Shown: positions 34,029 through 42,269 of the stretch, piece after piece
How the letters are laid out: each line of letters begins with the position of its first letter
Numbering within the stretch: the first letter of the stretch is position 1
Assembly: GCF_000155735.2 (NCBI RefSeq)
Contig: NC_020908.1
Span: forward strand, 2,919,001 to 2,983,000
DNA from: Octadecabacter arcticus 238
Lineage (GTDB): Bacteria > Pseudomonadota > Alphaproteobacteria > Rhodobacterales > Rhodobacteraceae
Length of the DNA: 64,000 nucleotides
Reading direction: 5' to 3'
Program-made: the position numbers and the translations under genes
The notes under the pieces: generated by a model
Seen by the model: the letters and a program-made list of their open reading frames with translations, nothing else
Told to the model about the DNA's origin: nothing
Database searches by the model: none

Positions 34029-34784
34029 TCAATCTTCGCTGTCGGCGTAGGCCTGCATGACCTCATCGGATGCATCCATATTGGTGGTGACAGACTGGAT
34101 GTCATCGTCGTCTTCCAATGCCTCAACCAGACGCATCAGCTTTTCCACACCTTCAAGGTCCAGTTCGGACTGAATGTTGGGCTGCCAAATCAGCTTGGTT
34201 GAAAAGCTTTCACCCAAATTGGCCTCAAGCGCGTTGGACACGTCATTAAGATCGCTGTCCGCGCAGATAATGACATGGCCGTCTTCATCGCTTTGTGCAT
34301 CTTCCGCACCCGCCTCGATGGCCGCCATCATCACGGTGTCATCGTCGCCAACCGATGCCGGATAGATAACCTGCCCCTTGCGATCGAACATGAAGCCCAC
34401 GGACCCGGTTTCACCCAGATTACCGCCCGCCTTGGAAAACGTGGACCGCACCGTGGACGCCGTGCGGTTCTTGTTGTCGGTCATCGCCTCAACGATCACG
34501 GCAACCCCGCCAGGGCCATAGCCCTCATAGCGGATTTCGTCGTAATTCTCTGCGTCGCCGCCAATGGCTTTCTTGATCGCGCGGTCGATGTTGTCTTTCG
34601 GCATCGACAGGACCTTGGCCTCTTTGATGGCCATGCGCAGACGCGGATTGTGGTCCGGGTCGGGATCGCCCATCTTGGCCGCAATGGTGATTTCCTTTGA
34701 CAGCTTGCTGAACAACTTGCCGCGCAACTTGTCTTGGCGTCCTTTACGGTGCTGAATATTCGCCCATTTTGAATGGCCTGCCAT
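34029..34784 (-). CDS. YebC/PmpR-family protein
   Basis: 251 aa. The highly conserved N-terminus [18 protein letters not shown] and the central [20 protein letters not shown] identify the family. These proteins were described as transcriptional regulators, and related members help ribosomes through difficult sequences; which role applies here is open. There is no ruvC next to it, unlike in many genomes. An 11-bp phased repeat array lies upstream. Confidence 0.93.
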
Positions 34785-34910
34785 GGGTCTTCTCCCGTGA
34801 GTTCAATTGTCTTTTCGTCGCCCTCTATAGGGCAGACTGGCGCGGTCCTGCAATCCCGTCTGAAATCGGCACAAGACACCCGAAATTCTGCACCCGCAGT
34901 ATGCCTCGTG

Positions 34911-34954
34911 TATGTACAGGTTGTGTACAGCTTGTGTACGCGATGTGTCGCGCA
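34911..34954. repeat. Four tandem 11-bp units between yebC and the SLC13 pseudogene
   Basis: Units at 34911, 34922, 34933 and 34944 share the core TGTGTAC (TATGTACAGGT, TGTGTACAGCT, TGTGTACGCGA, TGTGTCGCGCA), decaying to the right. The 11-bp period places each core on the same face of the helix. It lies in the divergent promoter region and may bind a regulator. Confidence 0.6.
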
Positions 34955-35822
34955 GAAAAACACGGTTTTCGCCCTTGGCTACACGCGCTACACATCCTTC
35001 ATGACATCAGATCAAATCATCCTCTTTTCTCTCTTTGGCGCAGTCTTTGGTCTGCTTCTCTGGGGGCGTTTTCGCTATGACCTTGTGGCCTTCTCTGCCC
35101 TGCTTGGCGGCGTGGTTTTGGGTGTGGTTCCAACCAAAGACGCCTTTTCCGGCTTCGGTCATCCGGCCACAATTATCGTCGCCTTGGTGCTGGTCGTCTC
35201 GGCGGGTCTGGTGCGCTCGGGTGCGGTCTATCTGATCACCCGTACACTGGTGGATGCATCTCGCAGTTTGGGTACACACATCGCTATTATGGGGGCCATT
35301 GGTGGGGTGTTGTCGGCATTCATGAACAACGTTGCGGCCCTTGCATTGTTGATGCCAGTGGACATTCAAACCGCACGAAAAGCGGGCCGCCCCCCGGCTT
35401 GTCGCTGATGCCGCTGTCGTTCGCCACCATCCTAGGCGGCATGGCGACCCTGATCGGAACACCCCCCAATATCATAATTGCCTCGATCCGCGAAGAAACC
35501 CTTGGCGAACCGTTCAAGATGTTCGACTTCGCCCCCGTTGGCATCGTTCTGCTATCGCGGGCCTGTTGTTCGTAGCGTTCATCGGTTGGCGCCTAATCCC
35601 TGCGCAAGACAGCAAACAGGCCGGCGCCACACTGGACAGCTACACCGATTATCTGGCCGAACTTACCGTTCCCACTGACAGCAAATATATCGGCAAACGC
35701 GTCTCTGAACTCTATGAAATAGCTAAAAAAATGATGTTGCGATCGGCTCTTCTTCGCTTTGTTGAGTTATTCTAGGATTTCAAATAGAACATAGATTGAT
35801 TATCTGGGATGGATGATTGTCT

Positions 35823-36993
35823 TATACCAACGGCCGAATTAAGTGACCCTTGCCCATTCTCGATCTGTGATTGAACTTATTCGCTCTGGGTCGTTCGCAA
35901 AGAAGTTCCAAGCTTGTGCACATTTGTCGAGTATTTCGTCATAGGTGTCGAAAACTGTGATTGCGAGTTTATTGGCTCGCAGATAAGCCCAGACGTTTTC
36001 CATGGGGTTCAGTTCGGGTGAATACGGTGGCAGCTTAACGAGAGTAATTTTATCTGGCACCTGCAAACATTTTGCGCCATGCCACCCCGCCCCATCAACA
36101 ATCAGCAAGGCATGTGAGCCGGGTGCGACAGCTTTTGCGATCTCATCAAGATGCAGCCCCATAGCCTCGGCGTTGACGTAGGGCAGGACGAGACCTGCGG
36201 CGGTACCACGTGCGGGACAAGCGGCACCAAAGATATAACTCCATTTGAAGCGTATATCACGGGGTGCGCGCGGGCGAGTTCCACGCTTGGCCCATTTACG
36301 GGTGAGTGTCCCCTGTTGTCCAACGCGGGCTTCATCTTGGAACCATACCTCAAGAGGCTTCCCCTTTGCATGTTCTGGCAGAGTATCGTTTACGAGGCTG
36401 GTAAAGTTTTTTTAAAAGTCTGCTGCGCTTCGCGATCAGTTTTCGGATGCTCTGGACGCACAGACAGGCGGCGAAAGCCATGCTTGGTTAGATATTTCCC
36501 AATCGTACGCACATGCAGTTTCACGTCGAACTCCTCTTCAACACGAGCCTGCAAGTCGACACAACGCCATCGTACTACGCCATCTTTTACTGGGTCGGGC
36601 CCGGCCTCCACCCACGCCACAAATTGCGCCTGTTGCTTGGGCGACAACCGTGGTTTTGCCCCCTTGCCATTCCGATCCGATAACCCCTCAATGCCTTCTG
36701 CGTTAAAGCGATGCGCCCAATCCCGAAGTGTTTGTCGATCCATACCACTGCTGCGGGCAGCCGTTTCACGATCCACCCCATCAAGCACCAGCGCTATGGC
36801 CAGTAGTCGCCGTACAACCCGCCCATCCTTGGTTCGCTTTGCCGCACGGCGCAAATCTTTCGCAGACATATCCGTGCGCGTAATTTTTATGGCTCCACCC
36901 ATGAGCACCTCCCAATCTATGGAGAATATTGATTCAGAGTTTACCAAAACTTAAAACCAAATAAATGAGTCAGATATTCTGGCCGCTGGTATA
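35823..36993 (-). mobile_element. IS630-family element, second type (IS630-B)
   Basis: 1171 bp including TA on both sides. The ends are TATACCAACGGCCGAATTAA at the left and, read inward from the right, TATACCAGCGGCCAGAATAT, an imperfect inverted repeat. It differs from IS630-A in sequence and uses a frameshifted transposase. It entered the 3' end of the ISL3 transposase gene (after EYFKLKI) without altering the frame on removal. Confidence 0.85.
35839..36902 (-). CDS. IS630-family transposase (IS630-B), made by -1 frameshifting
   Basis: The first ORF starts at MGGAIKITRTD (36902) and holds the helix-turn-helix half (MDRQTLRDWAHRFNAEGIEG); it would end at 36390. The second frame continues through KPLEVWFQDEARVGQQG (first D), LLIVDGAGWHG (second D) and LNPMENVWAYLRANKL (E). 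The frames meet at a run of seven A on the coding strand (36407-36413, followed by C), a slippery A_AAA_AAC site usual for this IS subgroup. A -1 slip gives one complete DDE transposase of about 354 aa. It therefore looks functional, not broken. Confidence 0.8.
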
Positions 36994-37315
36994 ATTTTGA
37001 GTTTGAAGTATTCGGTATCCCTGATGCCCCTGGCTCGTTTGCGGATCATTCCTATACTGACATTACCAGCCTCTATCCTGGCGCTTGTCAGCTTGTGTTT
37101 CGCGTAGTTGCATATGCCCACACAATGTTTTCTTAGGGATTTTGCGAACTTTTTCAGATAGAGCATGTGTGACTGATCTGCGATCAGGCACCAATTTTCC
37201 AGTTGCTCTGACATCCCCTCAAATGATGGGGCGCTCCACAGAGCCTGAAGCTGTTCTTTTAAGACGTAAAGCGTATTCAGGTTGCTATTGCTCTCCAGCA
37301 ACGTTTGCAGCTTGT

Positions 37316-38512
37316 TATACTCCCGCGCCTGAATTGACCTGAGGTTTTCCCCTCAAATCACTTTGTATTCCTTGAGCGATATGACGCGGAAGTTGTCGGT
37401 GACGGTGTCGCGGAACTCTAGCCATTTTTCTGGCAGGGTCTTGCGGAAGAAGTCGAAAATGGCCTCTGTGAATTGGTTGAACGTTGCATAGTGCCGATTG
37501 TGGGTGACCCATTTGTGCATAACACCCCAAAGACGCTCGATCGGGTTGAGGTGCGGGGCATATGCTGGCAAGAAATGCAACTTCACCCGACGTTCTGGGC
37601 TGTCCAGCCATGGCTGTAGTATCTTGGCATGATGATAGCGGGCATTGTCGACAAAGACGTGGATGGCCGTCTTGGTTTGGTTGTTGCGTTCCAACTTTTC
37701 CAGCATCTGTCGGGTTGTCTGGGCATTGATCTTCTCGCCTTCCACAAAGGTGAACTGGAAAGTCTCAAGGTCAAGCGCGCCCTGAATGTTGAGCCGCTTG
37801 CGCCCTGATGTCGCCTTCAGGGCCGTCTTTTGTCCCTTGGGGAACCAACCATGGGCGGGGCGGCTCTGGTGTTCGGGGTGGACAGCGTCCGAAAAGACAA
37901 CCATCTCATCTGCGGCCAACCCGTTCATCAGGGCCTCATATTTGGCAATAAACGCAGCCTGCTTGGCTTCATCGGCCTGTGCAGGCAGCAATTGTGGTTT
38001 CTTATACGCGAACCCCAGGCGGCGCATCAGCTTGGCGGCTCCCGACGTGCTGTAGTTTTGGTCGCACTCGGCTAGAACATAGGCACAGACCTCATCGGCA
38101 TTGCGGGCAGGCTGCGCGGTGAAATGGGCTCTCACCGCCTGCTCTTGCACGACGGACAAATGACCCTGACGCTGGCTGTAGTCCTTCAGACCGAAAAACG
38201 ATAGTCCCGCACCGGCAAAGGCAAATCGCCACTCCGTCAAAACTGTCGGGCCAATATCCAAAATCCGGCAAACCGTTCCGGCGTCTTCTCCTGCGTCCAA
38301 AAGAAGAAACGCGCGCGCCCGTTTCCAAACAAGGGCGTCAACTTTGCGGCGGCGGCAAAGCGCTTCAAGTGCTATGCGCTGCTCGTCGGATAAGGAGACT
38401 GTTTTGTATTGCTTGCTCATAAACTCAAAATACAGACTGAACCGCCTTTAGCCATGCGACGAAGTGAATCGCAGGCCCAAAATCGTCAGGTCAATTCAGG
38501 CGCAGGAGTATA
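37316..38512 (-). mobile_element. IS630-family element, copy 2 (IS630-A)
   Basis: 1197 bp with TA on both sides, nearly identical to copies 1 and 3 but in the minus orientation. It interrupts the ISL3 transposase between LNEKQS and NKLQTLLES; removal restores the frame. It faces copy 3 in inverted orientation across 629 bases. Confidence 0.95.
37353..38420 (-). CDS. IS630-family transposase (copy 2)
   Basis: 355 aa, intact DDE transposase identical to copy 1 except for single changes (for example Leu for Pro in EKWLEF near residue 332). Catalytic residues are the same: the D of FSDAVHPEH, the D of FVDNARYHH and the E of NPIERLW. Confidence 0.93.
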   Translation of the reverse strand: MSKQYKTVSLSDEQRIALEALCRRRKVDALVWKRARAFLLLDAGEDAGTVCRILDIGPTVLTEWRFAFAGAGLSFFGLKDYSQRQGHLSVVQEQAVRAHFTAQPARNADEVCAYVLAECDQNYSTSGAAKLMRRLGFAYKKPQLLPAQADEAKQAAFIAKYEALMNGLAADEMVVFSDAVHPEHQSRPAHGWFPKGQKTALKATSGRKRLNIQGALDLETFQFTFVEGEKINAQTTRQMLEKLERNNQTKTAIHVFVDNARYHHAKILQPWLDSPERRVKLHFLPAYAPHLNPIERLWGVMHKWVTHNRHYATFNQFTEAIFDFFRKTLPEKWLEFRDTVTDNFRVISLKEYKVI

Positions 38513-39141
38513 CTTTGTTTTTCATTCAACTTATCCGCATTTTTGAGCAACAGATAATGCGTGCCCTTCATCAACTCTTTACCACTTGGATCGGCCTTCC
38601 TGAACTCAAGGCGACGCTGATTATGGATAGCCTTGCTGTAGTTTTTCATGACGTGGAAACGGTCAAATACGATGTCGGCCATCGGCAAGGACTCCCTGAC
38701 AGGCTTTTGGTAGGCAGGCCCCATATCCATCGACACGGCCTTTATTTTATGGGCTGTATCTGGCTGCAGCTGTTTCAAAAACCTTGAAAAAACTTCGGCA
38801 GTTCGACCGGCTTCCACCCAGATCAGATGCCCTCCGACCATATCGTAGACCACCGTCATATAGTCATGACCTTTCGCCCGGGCCACTTCATCGACACCAA
38901 TGTATTCCAAGCCAGCAAGCTGTGCGGGATCAAGCGCAGGGAGCGTTTCCATCAGGTATGCCTTGTCGATATTCTTTACCGTCTCCCATCGTATACCTAA
39001 ATGCCTGGAGACAGCCAGAATGGATAAATGACGGCACAATCCACTGATAAGATGGCAAAATCGATGGGTGAAACGGCACCCTTTATCAACAAAAGGACAC
39101 GCCTCAATGCGGCGCTCACCCTTGCTAATAAAAACCTGCGC

Positions 39142-40338
39142 TATACTCCTGCGCCTGAATTGACCTGACGATTTTGGGCCTGCGATTCACTTCGTCGCAT
39201 GGCCAAAGGCGGTTCAGTCTGTATTTTGAGTTTATGAGCAAGCAATACAAAACAGTCTCCTTATCCGACGAGCAGCGCATAGCACTTGAAGCGCTTTGCC
39301 GCCGCCGCAAAGTTGACGCCCTTGTTTGGAAACGGGCGCGCGCGTTTCTTCTTTTGGACGCAGGAGAAGACGCCGGAACGGTTTGCCGGATTTTGGATAT
39401 TGGCCCGACAGTTTTGACGGAGTGGCGATTTACCTTTGCCGGTGCGGGACTATCGTTTTTCGGTCTGAAGGACTACAGCCAGCGTCAGGGTCATTTGTCC
39501 GTCGTGCAAGAGCAGGCGGTGAGAGCCCATTTCACCGCGCAGCCTGCCCGCAATGCCGATGAGGTCTGTGCCTATGTTCTAGCCGAGTGCGACCAAAACT
39601 ACAGCACGTCGGGAGCCGCCAAGCTGATGCGCCGCCTGAGGTTCGCGTATAAGAAACCACAATTGCTGCCTGCACAGGCCGATGAAGCCAAGCAGGCTGC
39701 GTTTATTGCCAAATATGAGGCCCTGATGAACGGGTTGGCCGCAGATGAGATGGTTGTCTTTTCGGACGCTGTCCACCCCGAACACCAGAGCCGCCCCGCC
39801 CATGGTTGGTTCCCCAAGGGACAAAAGACGGCCCTGAAGGCGACATCAGGGCGCAAGCGGCTCAACATTCAGGGCGCGCTTGACCTTGAGACTTTCCAGT
39901 TCACCTTTGTGGAAGGCGAGAAGATCAATGCCCAGACAACCCGACAGATGCTGGAAAAGTTGGAACGCAACAACCAAACCAAGACGGCCATCCACGTCTT
40001 TGTCGACAATGCCCGCTATCATCATGCCAAGATACTACAGCCATGGCTGGACAGCCCAGAACGTCGGGTGAAGTTGCATTTCTTGCCAGCATATGCCCCG
40101 CACCTCAACCCGATCGAGCGTCTTTGGGGTGTTATGCACAAATGGGTCACCCACAATCGGCACTATGCAACGTTCAACCAATTCACAGAGGCCATTTTCG
40201 ACTTCTTCCGCAAGACCCTGCCAGAAAAATGGCCAGAGTTCCGCGACACCGTCACCGACAACTTCCGCGTCATATCGCTCAAGGAATACAAAGTGATTTG
40301 AGGGGAAAACCTCAGGTCAATTCAGGCGCGGGAGTATA
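39142..40338 (+). mobile_element. IS630-family element, copy 3 (IS630-A)
   Basis: 1197 bp with TA on both sides, plus orientation. It interrupts the ISL3 transposase between CVIEIEL and AQVFISKG; removal restores the frame (codons GAG CTA GCG). It is nearly identical to copies 1 and 2. Confidence 0.95.
39234..40301 (+). CDS. IS630-family transposase (copy 3)
   Basis: 355 aa, intact DDE transposase. It differs from copy 1 at two residues seen by eye: Thr for Ala in the FTFAGAG segment and Arg for Gly in RRLRFAYKK. The three catalytic motifs are unchanged. Confidence 0.93.
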   Translation: MSKQYKTVSLSDEQRIALEALCRRRKVDALVWKRARAFLLLDAGEDAGTVCRILDIGPTVLTEWRFTFAGAGLSFFGLKDYSQRQGHLSVVQEQAVRAHFTAQPARNADEVCAYVLAECDQNYSTSGAAKLMRRLRFAYKKPQLLPAQADEAKQAAFIAKYEALMNGLAADEMVVFSDAVHPEHQSRPAHGWFPKGQKTALKATSGRKRLNIQGALDLETFQFTFVEGEKINAQTTRQMLEKLERNNQTKTAIHVFVDNARYHHAKILQPWLDSPERRVKLHFLPAYAPHLNPIERLWGVMHKWVTHNRHYATFNQFTEAIFDFFRKTLPEKWPEFRDTVTDNFRVISLKEYKVI

Positions 40339-41104
40339 GCTCAATCTCAATCACACAAGGATACCCAAAAAACGGGATGTCGTTTACTTGTCGGCGAATA
40401 TGTTGGTTGATGCTACCCTTCTTGCCGGTTGCAGGGTCTATAGCGCTCCTGCGGGCATCCCGACTGCACTGAACAATAACCTTCGCACAGTCTTCAGCCA
40501 GCTCAATTTCATTTACACGTTGCCCCTTCAGGCGTAAAATCTGTTGCGAGATGTCGATGGTCATATACCTGCCCTATGAAAAGTTGTCAGAAACCTAACA
40601 TATCAATAGGTTACTTGATGGTCGGCATCTTTTCTTACTCAACAAAGCGGAGAAGAGCCTTGCGATCCTTGGCTTGATCCGCAAAGGCAAAACCCAATAC
40701 GGCACGGCAACGAACAATATTTTACAGGGCCAAGACACGCTTGTCATCGAAGCCGCCCCCGAAGCGCTTGGCGAATTTCGTGCCGCCCTGAACCTCGACT
40801 TTACCGATTCCAAACGTGAGGAATTCTTATCCGGTGCCTCTGAAGGATTGACCGTCATCGAGGTCGTCGCGACCGAAAGTTCCCGCATCACCAGAAAAAC
40901 AGCTGAGGCGATCGGCCTTGCTTGGCGCCAACGTACCGTCCTGATGGGGCTGTCGCGCAAAGGCAAAACCGTCAAATCCCGGATGCGCAAAACGGTGATC
41001 GAGGCGGGCGATATTTTGCTGCTGCTTGCCCCGCAAGACGCCGCCAACGACGTCATTGAATGGCTCGACTGCCTGCCGCTGGCAGATCGCGGTGTGGCGG
41101 TGAC

Positions 41105-42269
41105 CATACTACACGACAGTAGGGTGGTTGAGGGTGTCAGAAGGTGATTTAGGAGCGGACTCTTATCGCTAAAAAAGGTTCCACGGATGATCACGAAAGC
41201 CCTGACGACCCTCAAGAAGAGGTTATCCCCCCATTTAGAGTTGAGCAACAGTCGCCTTGAAACGATGTGCCTCTTGATCATGGGAATGGTGAATGCCCGG
41301 ACGGTAAATTTGAGCCATCTGGCCTGTGAGTTTCCTACCGATAGCAAGGTTGAAAGCACCTACCGTCGCCTACAACGCTTTTTCCAGCATGTTGATCTTG
41401 GCTCGGATTGGGCGGCCCCCTTGCTTGTTAAAATGATTGGTTCTGGCCCCACCTGGCATTTATGCTTGGACCGAACAAATTGGAAAATTGGCCAACGCCA
41501 TGTCAACTTCTTGGTCTTAGCCATTGTCACACGCCGCCACCGTATTCCGTTGATGTGGAGCGTTTTGGGGCGTGCAGGGAACAGCGATACTGCTCAGCGC
41601 ATTGCCTTGATGAAACGTTATCTGTCGGTGTTTGAGGTCTCCACCATCAAGTTCTTGTTAGCGGACCGGGAATTCATTGGAGCACAATGGTTGGATTTTC
41701 TTCATAAAAACAACGTCCCATTTGTCATCCGTATCAAAGCAAACCAACTTGTGACCACACAGGACGGGAAAACGCAAAATCTAAGCACCTTGTTGCGCAC
41801 CTGTCGCGGTAAGCGCAACTTTGATGCCCGATTTGGAGGCAACAATTTGGGGGAGGCCACGTGGTTTAGCTTTGCTGCAAAGCGCATCAAGGGGGTGAGC
41901 TTTTGATCGTCGTCTCTAACCGGCCCGCACATCGGGCCCTCGCCACCTACAAGAAAAGATGGGCCATTGAGAGCCTCTTTGGCGACACAAAGACACGCGG
42001 CTTCAATCTTGAAGACACACGACTAACCATCTCCCAAAAACTTGAGCTTCTTTTAGGTCTCGTTGCGCTCGCGGTTGCATGGGCATCTAAAACCGCCACA
42101 AAGCTTATTGGAGGCGGGGAAATGAAGCGGAAAAAACACGGATATTTTGCAAAGTCATTCTTTCGAATTGGCTTCGATCAGCTCCGTAAACTGCTCAGGT
42201 CAGACCCAAACGCCGCTGTCTCACCGTGGATACTAATTCCACCCATAATCACAAGAGTCGTGTAGTATG
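41105..42269 (+). mobile_element. IS4-family element
   Basis: 1165 bp with a perfect 13-bp terminal inverted repeat CATACTACACGAC. The flanking 9-mers GGCGGTGAC (41096-41104) and GGCTGTGAC (42270-42278) are a target duplication with one mismatch. Removal rejoins the SLC13 reading frame exactly at GTG AC|T GAA. This is the second IS in the same host gene. Confidence 0.88.
41187..42265 (+). pseudogene. IS4-family transposase with frameshift
   Basis: The first part (41187-41906) holds the N-terminus and two catalytic acids (CLDRTNWKIG and LLADREFIG). The second part (41903-42265) holds the C-terminal Y-(2)-R-(3)-E-type region: TYKKRWAIESLFGDTKTRGFN. The frames differ by one base at the G run near 41890 (AAGGGGGTGAG); adding one G gives GGELLIVVSNR, as in the family. 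The total would be about 359 aa. One lost base, or a sequencing error, makes it inactive. Confidence 0.85.

Follow-up and report, generated by a model that had tools for sequence, protein, structure and literature searches.

An ISL3 element of Octadecabacter arcticus 238 interrupted by three IS630-like insertions, and a probable TNA target duplication in an ISAli3-like subgroup of IS630

Introduction

The published account of the Octadecabacter arcticus 238 genome records 1175 genes and pseudogenes of insertion sequences (IS) and transposons, including 83 of the IS630 family and 39 of the ISL3 family (PMC3646047). The corresponding figures for O. antarcticus are 5 for IS630 and none for ISL3 (PMC3646047), a difference that makes the ISL3 load appear particular to O. 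arcticus. The genome, which comprises a 5.2-Mb chromosome and plasmids of 118 and 160 kb, was sequenced by the Sanger method and finished, with gaps closed by polymerase chain reaction (PCR) (PMC3646047). Its best named match for DnaG is that of O. antarcticus 307, at 96%, and another match stands at 99%. In the IS630/Tc1-mariner family, insertions duplicate a TA dinucleotide, as described in an in vitro study of ISY100; 5 of the 39 products in one assay of that study were aberrant, so imprecise events occur (PMC2170065). Here we describe an ISL3 element that has been interrupted by three IS630-like elements, one copy of IS630-B and two of IS630-A. It lies in a stretch of 64,000 base pairs (bp) from the O. 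arcticus 238 genome (NC_020908.1, positions 2,919,001 to 2,983,000), referred to as the window, and positions below are those of the window unless stated otherwise.

Results

Structure of the nest and its junctions

The nest is very likely the product of an ISL3 insertion into a transporter gene, followed by separate insertions of IS630-B and the two IS630-A copies, and would be one of many nests in an IS-crowded genome. The ISL3 element spans positions 35745–40659, has a copy of the 8-bp duplication TTGCGATC on each side, and is divided into four pieces by IS630-B and two mutually inverted copies of IS630-A that are 99.67% identical (Table 1). The first-pass annotation of the window had recognised the perfect 8-bp duplication and the nesting of all three elements in a single, otherwise sound ISL3 element, and both descriptions stand.

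The transposase of an intact ISL3 copy from the same genome (L008) scored 302.3 bits against the NCBIfam model NF033550 (cut-off 180), PF01610 was matched by two of the window pieces, and the intact copies have 23-bp inverted end matches as terminal inverted repeats. A target duplication of 8 bp is typical of the ISL3 family, and a perfect one was found for 14 of 18 full ISL3 copies and for six of the nine disrupted copies checked, the window copy included.

The genome also carries 18 ISL3 copies free of large insertions, so every junction of the nest could be checked against natural uninterrupted sequence. Sixteen of these are 1355 bp long and the remaining two, which contain a small insertion, are 1362 bp. 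The three insertion sites are identical in all 18, apart from one neighbouring substitution in L012. The junctions at ISL3 positions 402/403 and 1033/1034, both occupied by IS630-A, fit the uninterrupted copies exactly with one TA duplicated at each. At the junction occupied by IS630-B (junction 1), the sequence is GTC-TAA-TTTTG in the uninterrupted copies and GTC-TTA, IS630-B, TAA-TTTTG in the window. Joining this junction with a single TA leaves one extra T and an element of 1356 rather than 1355 bp, whereas a TNA rule requires only a single substitution, in the left copy. On reading the frame, the one-TA join would shift the C-terminus of the transposase and give 402 codons, compared with 410 aa in the intact copy. 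The extra base and the 402-codon frame thus arise from assuming a TA duplication for an element that duplicates TNA. Removal of each element with one TA, as had been proposed, therefore holds for both IS630-A copies and fails for IS630-B, and the reconstructed 1356-bp element with a 402-codon gene gives way to a natural element of 1355 bp with a 410-aa transposase.

Because the junctions carry duplications and match the uninterrupted copies, coincidence is excluded. The same agreement bears on the idea that near-identical repeats were misassembled, for which the presence of about 76 near-identical IS630-A copies in the genome is a known hazard. Duplications at junctions that fit the uninterrupted copies argue against such an artefact, as do the Sanger sequencing, finishing and PCR gap closure of this genome (PMC3646047), and we regard it as hardly credible.

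Besides the TNA base, the window ISL3 has two private substitutions (element positions 10 and 1237), and its other variants are common to other copies. The earlier statement that the target shows no decay thus holds only roughly. An apparent private difference at position 77 was discarded as an artefact, as the alignment runs into IS630-B at this point.

An ISL3 copy that was already interrupted could have been carried to this position as a unit by the transposase of an intact copy. The intact ISL3 ends and the perfect 8-bp duplication would suit such a move and the 18 uninterrupted copies are possible sources of transposase in trans, but none of the three insertion sites is shared by any other ISL3 copy found, and we consider the move quite improbable. 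We also rejected the idea that the window copy duplicates some other nest, as its insertion sites are unique among the ISL3 copies found. A plasmid search with the intact ISL3 gave no match.

The interrupted gene and its empty site

The gene interrupted by ISL3 is of the CitMHS transporter type (Table 1). In the corresponding region of a congeneric genome (G296, locus L294), which is 95% identical, a single TTGCGATC lies at the point where the two flanks meet. ISL3 was absent from the target site in all seven congeneric loci fetched (L294–L300). The upstream part of the gene was matched in 17 of the 19 genus genomes searched, the source genome (G000) included. Its alignment with L294 contains three gaps and, together with the two frame changes in this part, these indicate that the gene has been damaged beyond the ISL3 insertion. 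Directly downstream of the broken gene, at 41187–41906, is a transposase open reading frame that matches an IS4-type model below the cut-off.

Table 1. Features of the nested ISL3 element and the interrupted gene, in window coordinates
Feature	Position	Strand	Details
Target gene, 5' part, CitMHS transporter type	34773..35744	+	Pfam; readable with two frame changes only
Left 8-bp target duplication of ISL3, TTGCGATC	35737..35744		Sequence; single TTGCGATC at L294 empty site
ISL3 piece 1 (element positions 1-80)	35745..35824	+	Comparison with uninterrupted copies; left TNA copy TTA at its end
Left TNA copy of IS630-B, TTA	35822..35824		TAA in uninterrupted ISL3
IS630-B, ISAli3-like	35825..36991	+	1167 bp; transposase on - strand in two frames with A7 run
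IS630-B orfB, DDE domain	35839..36411	-	NF033545, 141.8 bits; -1 frame relative to orfA
IS630-B orfA, helix-turn-helix domains	36390..36947	-
A7 run at orfA/orfB overlap	36407..36413	-	21/21 full copies
Right TNA copy of IS630-B, TAA	36992..36994
ISL3 piece 2 (positions 78-403)	36992..37317	+	Comparison with uninterrupted copies; TA copy at its end
IS630-A copy 1	37318..38510	+	1193 bp; TA at 37316-37317 and 38511-38512; transposase 37353-38420, - strand
ISL3 piece 3 (positions 402-1034)	38511..39143	+	Comparison with uninterrupted copies
IS630-A copy 2, inverted	39144..40336	-	TA at 39142-39143 and 40337-40338; transposase open reading frame end 40301, + strand
ISL3 piece 4 (positions 1033-1355)	40337..40659	+	Comparison with uninterrupted copies
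Right 8-bp target duplication of ISL3, TTGCGATC	40660..40667		Sequence
Target gene, 3' part, TrkA_C domain	40660..41147	+	Pfam

Frequency of insertions in ISL3

A census in which 514,469 bases of the 5.48 Mb genome were read found at least 36 ISL3 copies, and 18 of these 36 are disrupted or truncated. Eighteen insertions were resolved on both sides, with three in the window copy, two in each of four copies and one in each of seven; by our own count, six further copies end abruptly on a single side. Ten kinds of element have entered ISL3, namely IS630-A, IS630-B, IS256, IS1595, IS66, another ISL3, an IS481-like element, IS200, ISAs1 and IS5, with the IS66 and IS481 matches falling below the curated cut-offs. 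If 18 to 24 hits are distributed over 36 copies, the Poisson expectation for copies hit at least three times is 0.52 to 1.09, and one was seen. We therefore rejected the triple hit as statistically remarkable. Several breaks lie near shared positions, at about 201–213 in L214, L220 and L229 and about 1262–1270 in L222, L223 and L226. IS1595-like or other elements are the agents there, and a shared history and a target preference are alike possible.

These counts bear on the proposal in the first-pass annotation of a very rapid burst, in which all three IS630 elements would have inserted into one ISL3 copy in quick succession. The near-intact state of the inner elements and the target pieces would fit a burst, as would the low number of private changes in the window ISL3 and the 0.34% difference between the two IS630-A copies. 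However, disruption or truncation of half the copies found, hits by ten kinds of IS and a triple hit close to random expectation do not call for one, and mean divergence from L008 is higher in the disrupted copies than in the uninterrupted ones (0.38% versus 0.19%, 18 versus 18 copies, one-sided P=0.002), which favours accumulation with time. The burst is thus unlikely, and later, separate insertions remain the preferred explanation.

IS630-A and its target sites

Both IS630-A transposases in the nest exceed the cut-off of 100 bits for the IS630 model NF033545 (191 and 187 bits), and matches to the ends of the element (75 forward, 77 reverse) gave the estimate of its copy number quoted above. 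A third copy in the window, at 364–1556, also has TA on both sides. The survey of target context suggested by the first-pass annotation covered the 67 full copies whose flanks were read, of which 62 are bordered by TA at both ends and five are not. TA is present once in the uninterrupted ISL3 at the IS630-A sites, confirming a 2-bp TA duplication. Among these 62 sites, the position three bases away from the TA is A or T in 93% and 84% on the two sides, and the left arm is T-rich and the right arm A-rich. A plasmid search with IS630-A gave three matches, all partial, covering 13–16% of the query.

This pattern allows the second earlier proposal, a preference for the ISL3 sequence, to be assessed. 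When the three ISL3 sites were omitted and the motif was taken from the 59 other insertions, the ISL3 positions used by IS630-A (48, 402 and 1033) ranked 1, 5 and 14 among 68. The mean rank corresponds to P=0.00025 over four insertion events and P=0.0037 over the three distinct sites. Position 48 was the site in two further ISL3 copies, L201 (C1:3801956) and L202 (C1:3818815), where the IS630-A elements lie in opposite orientations. The IS630-A of L201 is in turn interrupted by about 2.5 kb. Four IS630-A insertions were observed in ISL3 compared with 0.63 expected by length (77 copies assumed, P=0.004). IS630-A may therefore favour certain sites in ISL3 and in other IS, making ISL3 copies hot spots, a reading that we hold tentatively, at a little under even weight. 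The window's own sites, 402 and 1033, are the weaker ones, with a mean rank of P about 0.04 when taken alone (hand calculation). Moreover, the motif model expects nine IS630-A copies in ISL3, against the four found, an excess suggesting that part of the motif stems from the survival of insertions in AT-rich DNA. Preference of IS630-A alone cannot explain the disrupted copies because eight kinds of element outside IS630 have also hit ISL3. The preference proposal is thus partly supported; some preference is likely, of modest size for the window's sites.

Two pairs of IS630-A copies, L042 with L035 and L044 with L167, have shared left flanks that, by eye, match an IS66-like end and an IS200-like start. 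Repeated sites for IS630-A thus seem to exist in other IS as well.

IS630-B and the TNA duplication

IS630-B and its ISAli3-like relatives probably form a subgroup of IS630/Tc1-mariner elements whose target is TNA rather than TA and whose duplication has three bases rather than two. A perfect 3-bp TNA duplication was found for 20 of the 21 full IS630-B copies with both flanks, the sequences being TGA (seven), TAA (seven), TTA (five) and TCA (one). One copy, at C1:2870231, lies inside an IS630-A, and the uninterrupted IS630-A has TCA once at that position. The orfB product scores above the cut-off of the IS630 model NF033545 (Table 1), and most of its relatives among the matches listed are annotated as IS630 or ISAli3. 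As the 2-bp TA duplication of IS630 is not seen, the element is placed as IS630-like, ISAli3 subgroup, by its transposase alone.

The identities of orfB are 68% to Paracoccus liaowanqingii and 60.4–60.9% to the ISAli3 proteins of Azospirillum lipoferum 4B, where plasmid records carry this name in their annotation. Fourteen loci carrying relatives were fetched, and TACC...GGTA ends with flanks were located in 11, from three other genera. Ten of the 11 have a perfect TNA duplication, comprising all four Azospirillum ISAli3 copies, both Rhodovastum relatives and four of the five in Paracoccus. The fifth Paracoccus copy (L283) has TTA on one side and TAA on the other. The TACC...GGTA end pair was not found in three Roseomonas loci (L288–L290), which are outside the 11 counted. 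IS630-B DNA, compared with 289 genomes of the class, gave a match in 11, the ten other matches being partial. No report of TNA in IS630 was found in the open-licence literature, which is weak evidence of absence, and nothing was found there on ISAli3.

The unequal TTA and TAA that flank the window copy of IS630-B are best read as a single substitution in the left TNA copy. We also considered that a T was inserted in ISL3 and that a 2-bp TA duplication then arose in TTAA. This would require two departures rather than one, although the identical TTA/TAA pair of the Paracoccus copy L283 lends it some plausibility, and the single substitution is favoured.

The overlap between orfA and orfB and the run of seven A residues within it are present in all 21 full copies, consistent with a predicted programmed -1 frameshift. 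In one of these copies the orfA frame is shortened, and in another the orfB frame.

Discussion

The triple nest is real, well preserved and expected in the O. arcticus genome. ISL3 would have inserted into the transporter gene and produced the 8-bp duplication; IS630-B, at a TNA site, and two IS630-A copies, at TA sites, would then have entered this ISL3 copy as separate events and broken its transposase gene. ISL3 is rich in TA (50 per kb, against 24 per kb in the window), and its copies, as TA-rich targets, are probably neutral ground in which hits gather over time. We infer the order and timing of these steps, their neutrality and the occurrence of each insertion in place.

Several observations weigh against this account. 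A perfect 8-bp duplication is lacking in four of the 18 full ISL3 copies and three of the nine disrupted ones, and the window IS630-B is the sole copy of the 21 with mismatched flanks. Targeting is not uniform, as IS630-A insertions in ISL3 exceed the length expectation. The ISL3 counts are lower bounds, with 40 of 62 first-look candidates scored and 22 unscored. The reference for divergence, L008, is itself uninterrupted, a bias that favours intact copies.

The nest shows IS copies turning into landing ground for other IS in an IS-crowded genome, where a triple nest is itself ordinary. Of the by-products, the most interesting is the TNA duplication in the ISAli3-like subgroup. If it is correct, the strand-transfer stagger of this subgroup would exceed by one base that of mariner, ISY100 and IS630, for which insertion at TA is described, and the Tc1-mariner superfamily would contain a natural example of a changed target stagger. 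In practice, a TA rule applied to all IS630-like elements creates false frameshifts in inferred empty sites.

Compared with known systems, the outer element conforms to the ISL3 family in its transposase, which is above the cut-off, its terminal inverted repeats and its 8-bp duplications, and no difference was seen in the window element except breakage by the insertions. The published IS account of O. arcticus 238 shares the heavy IS load; the nest, its junctions and its target sites are not described in the available part of that account (PMC3646047). Acinetobacter lwoffii M2a is likewise IS-crowded, with more than 250 IS elements of 15 families and use of the term IS-in-IS, and differs in its host and IS families (PMC7031236). 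ISY100 and the IS630/Tc1-mariner family share the TA duplication with IS630-A, and the transposases of both IS630-A and IS630-B match the IS630 model, but the TA target contrasts with the three-base TNA of IS630-B and its ISAli3-like relatives (PMC2170065). ISAli3 shares orfB identity and TNA duplications with IS630-B, and its coding region is annotated over 1067 bases, which is not a multiple of three, as expected for a frameshifted gene; it differs from IS630-B in its host and in its diverged internal sequence.

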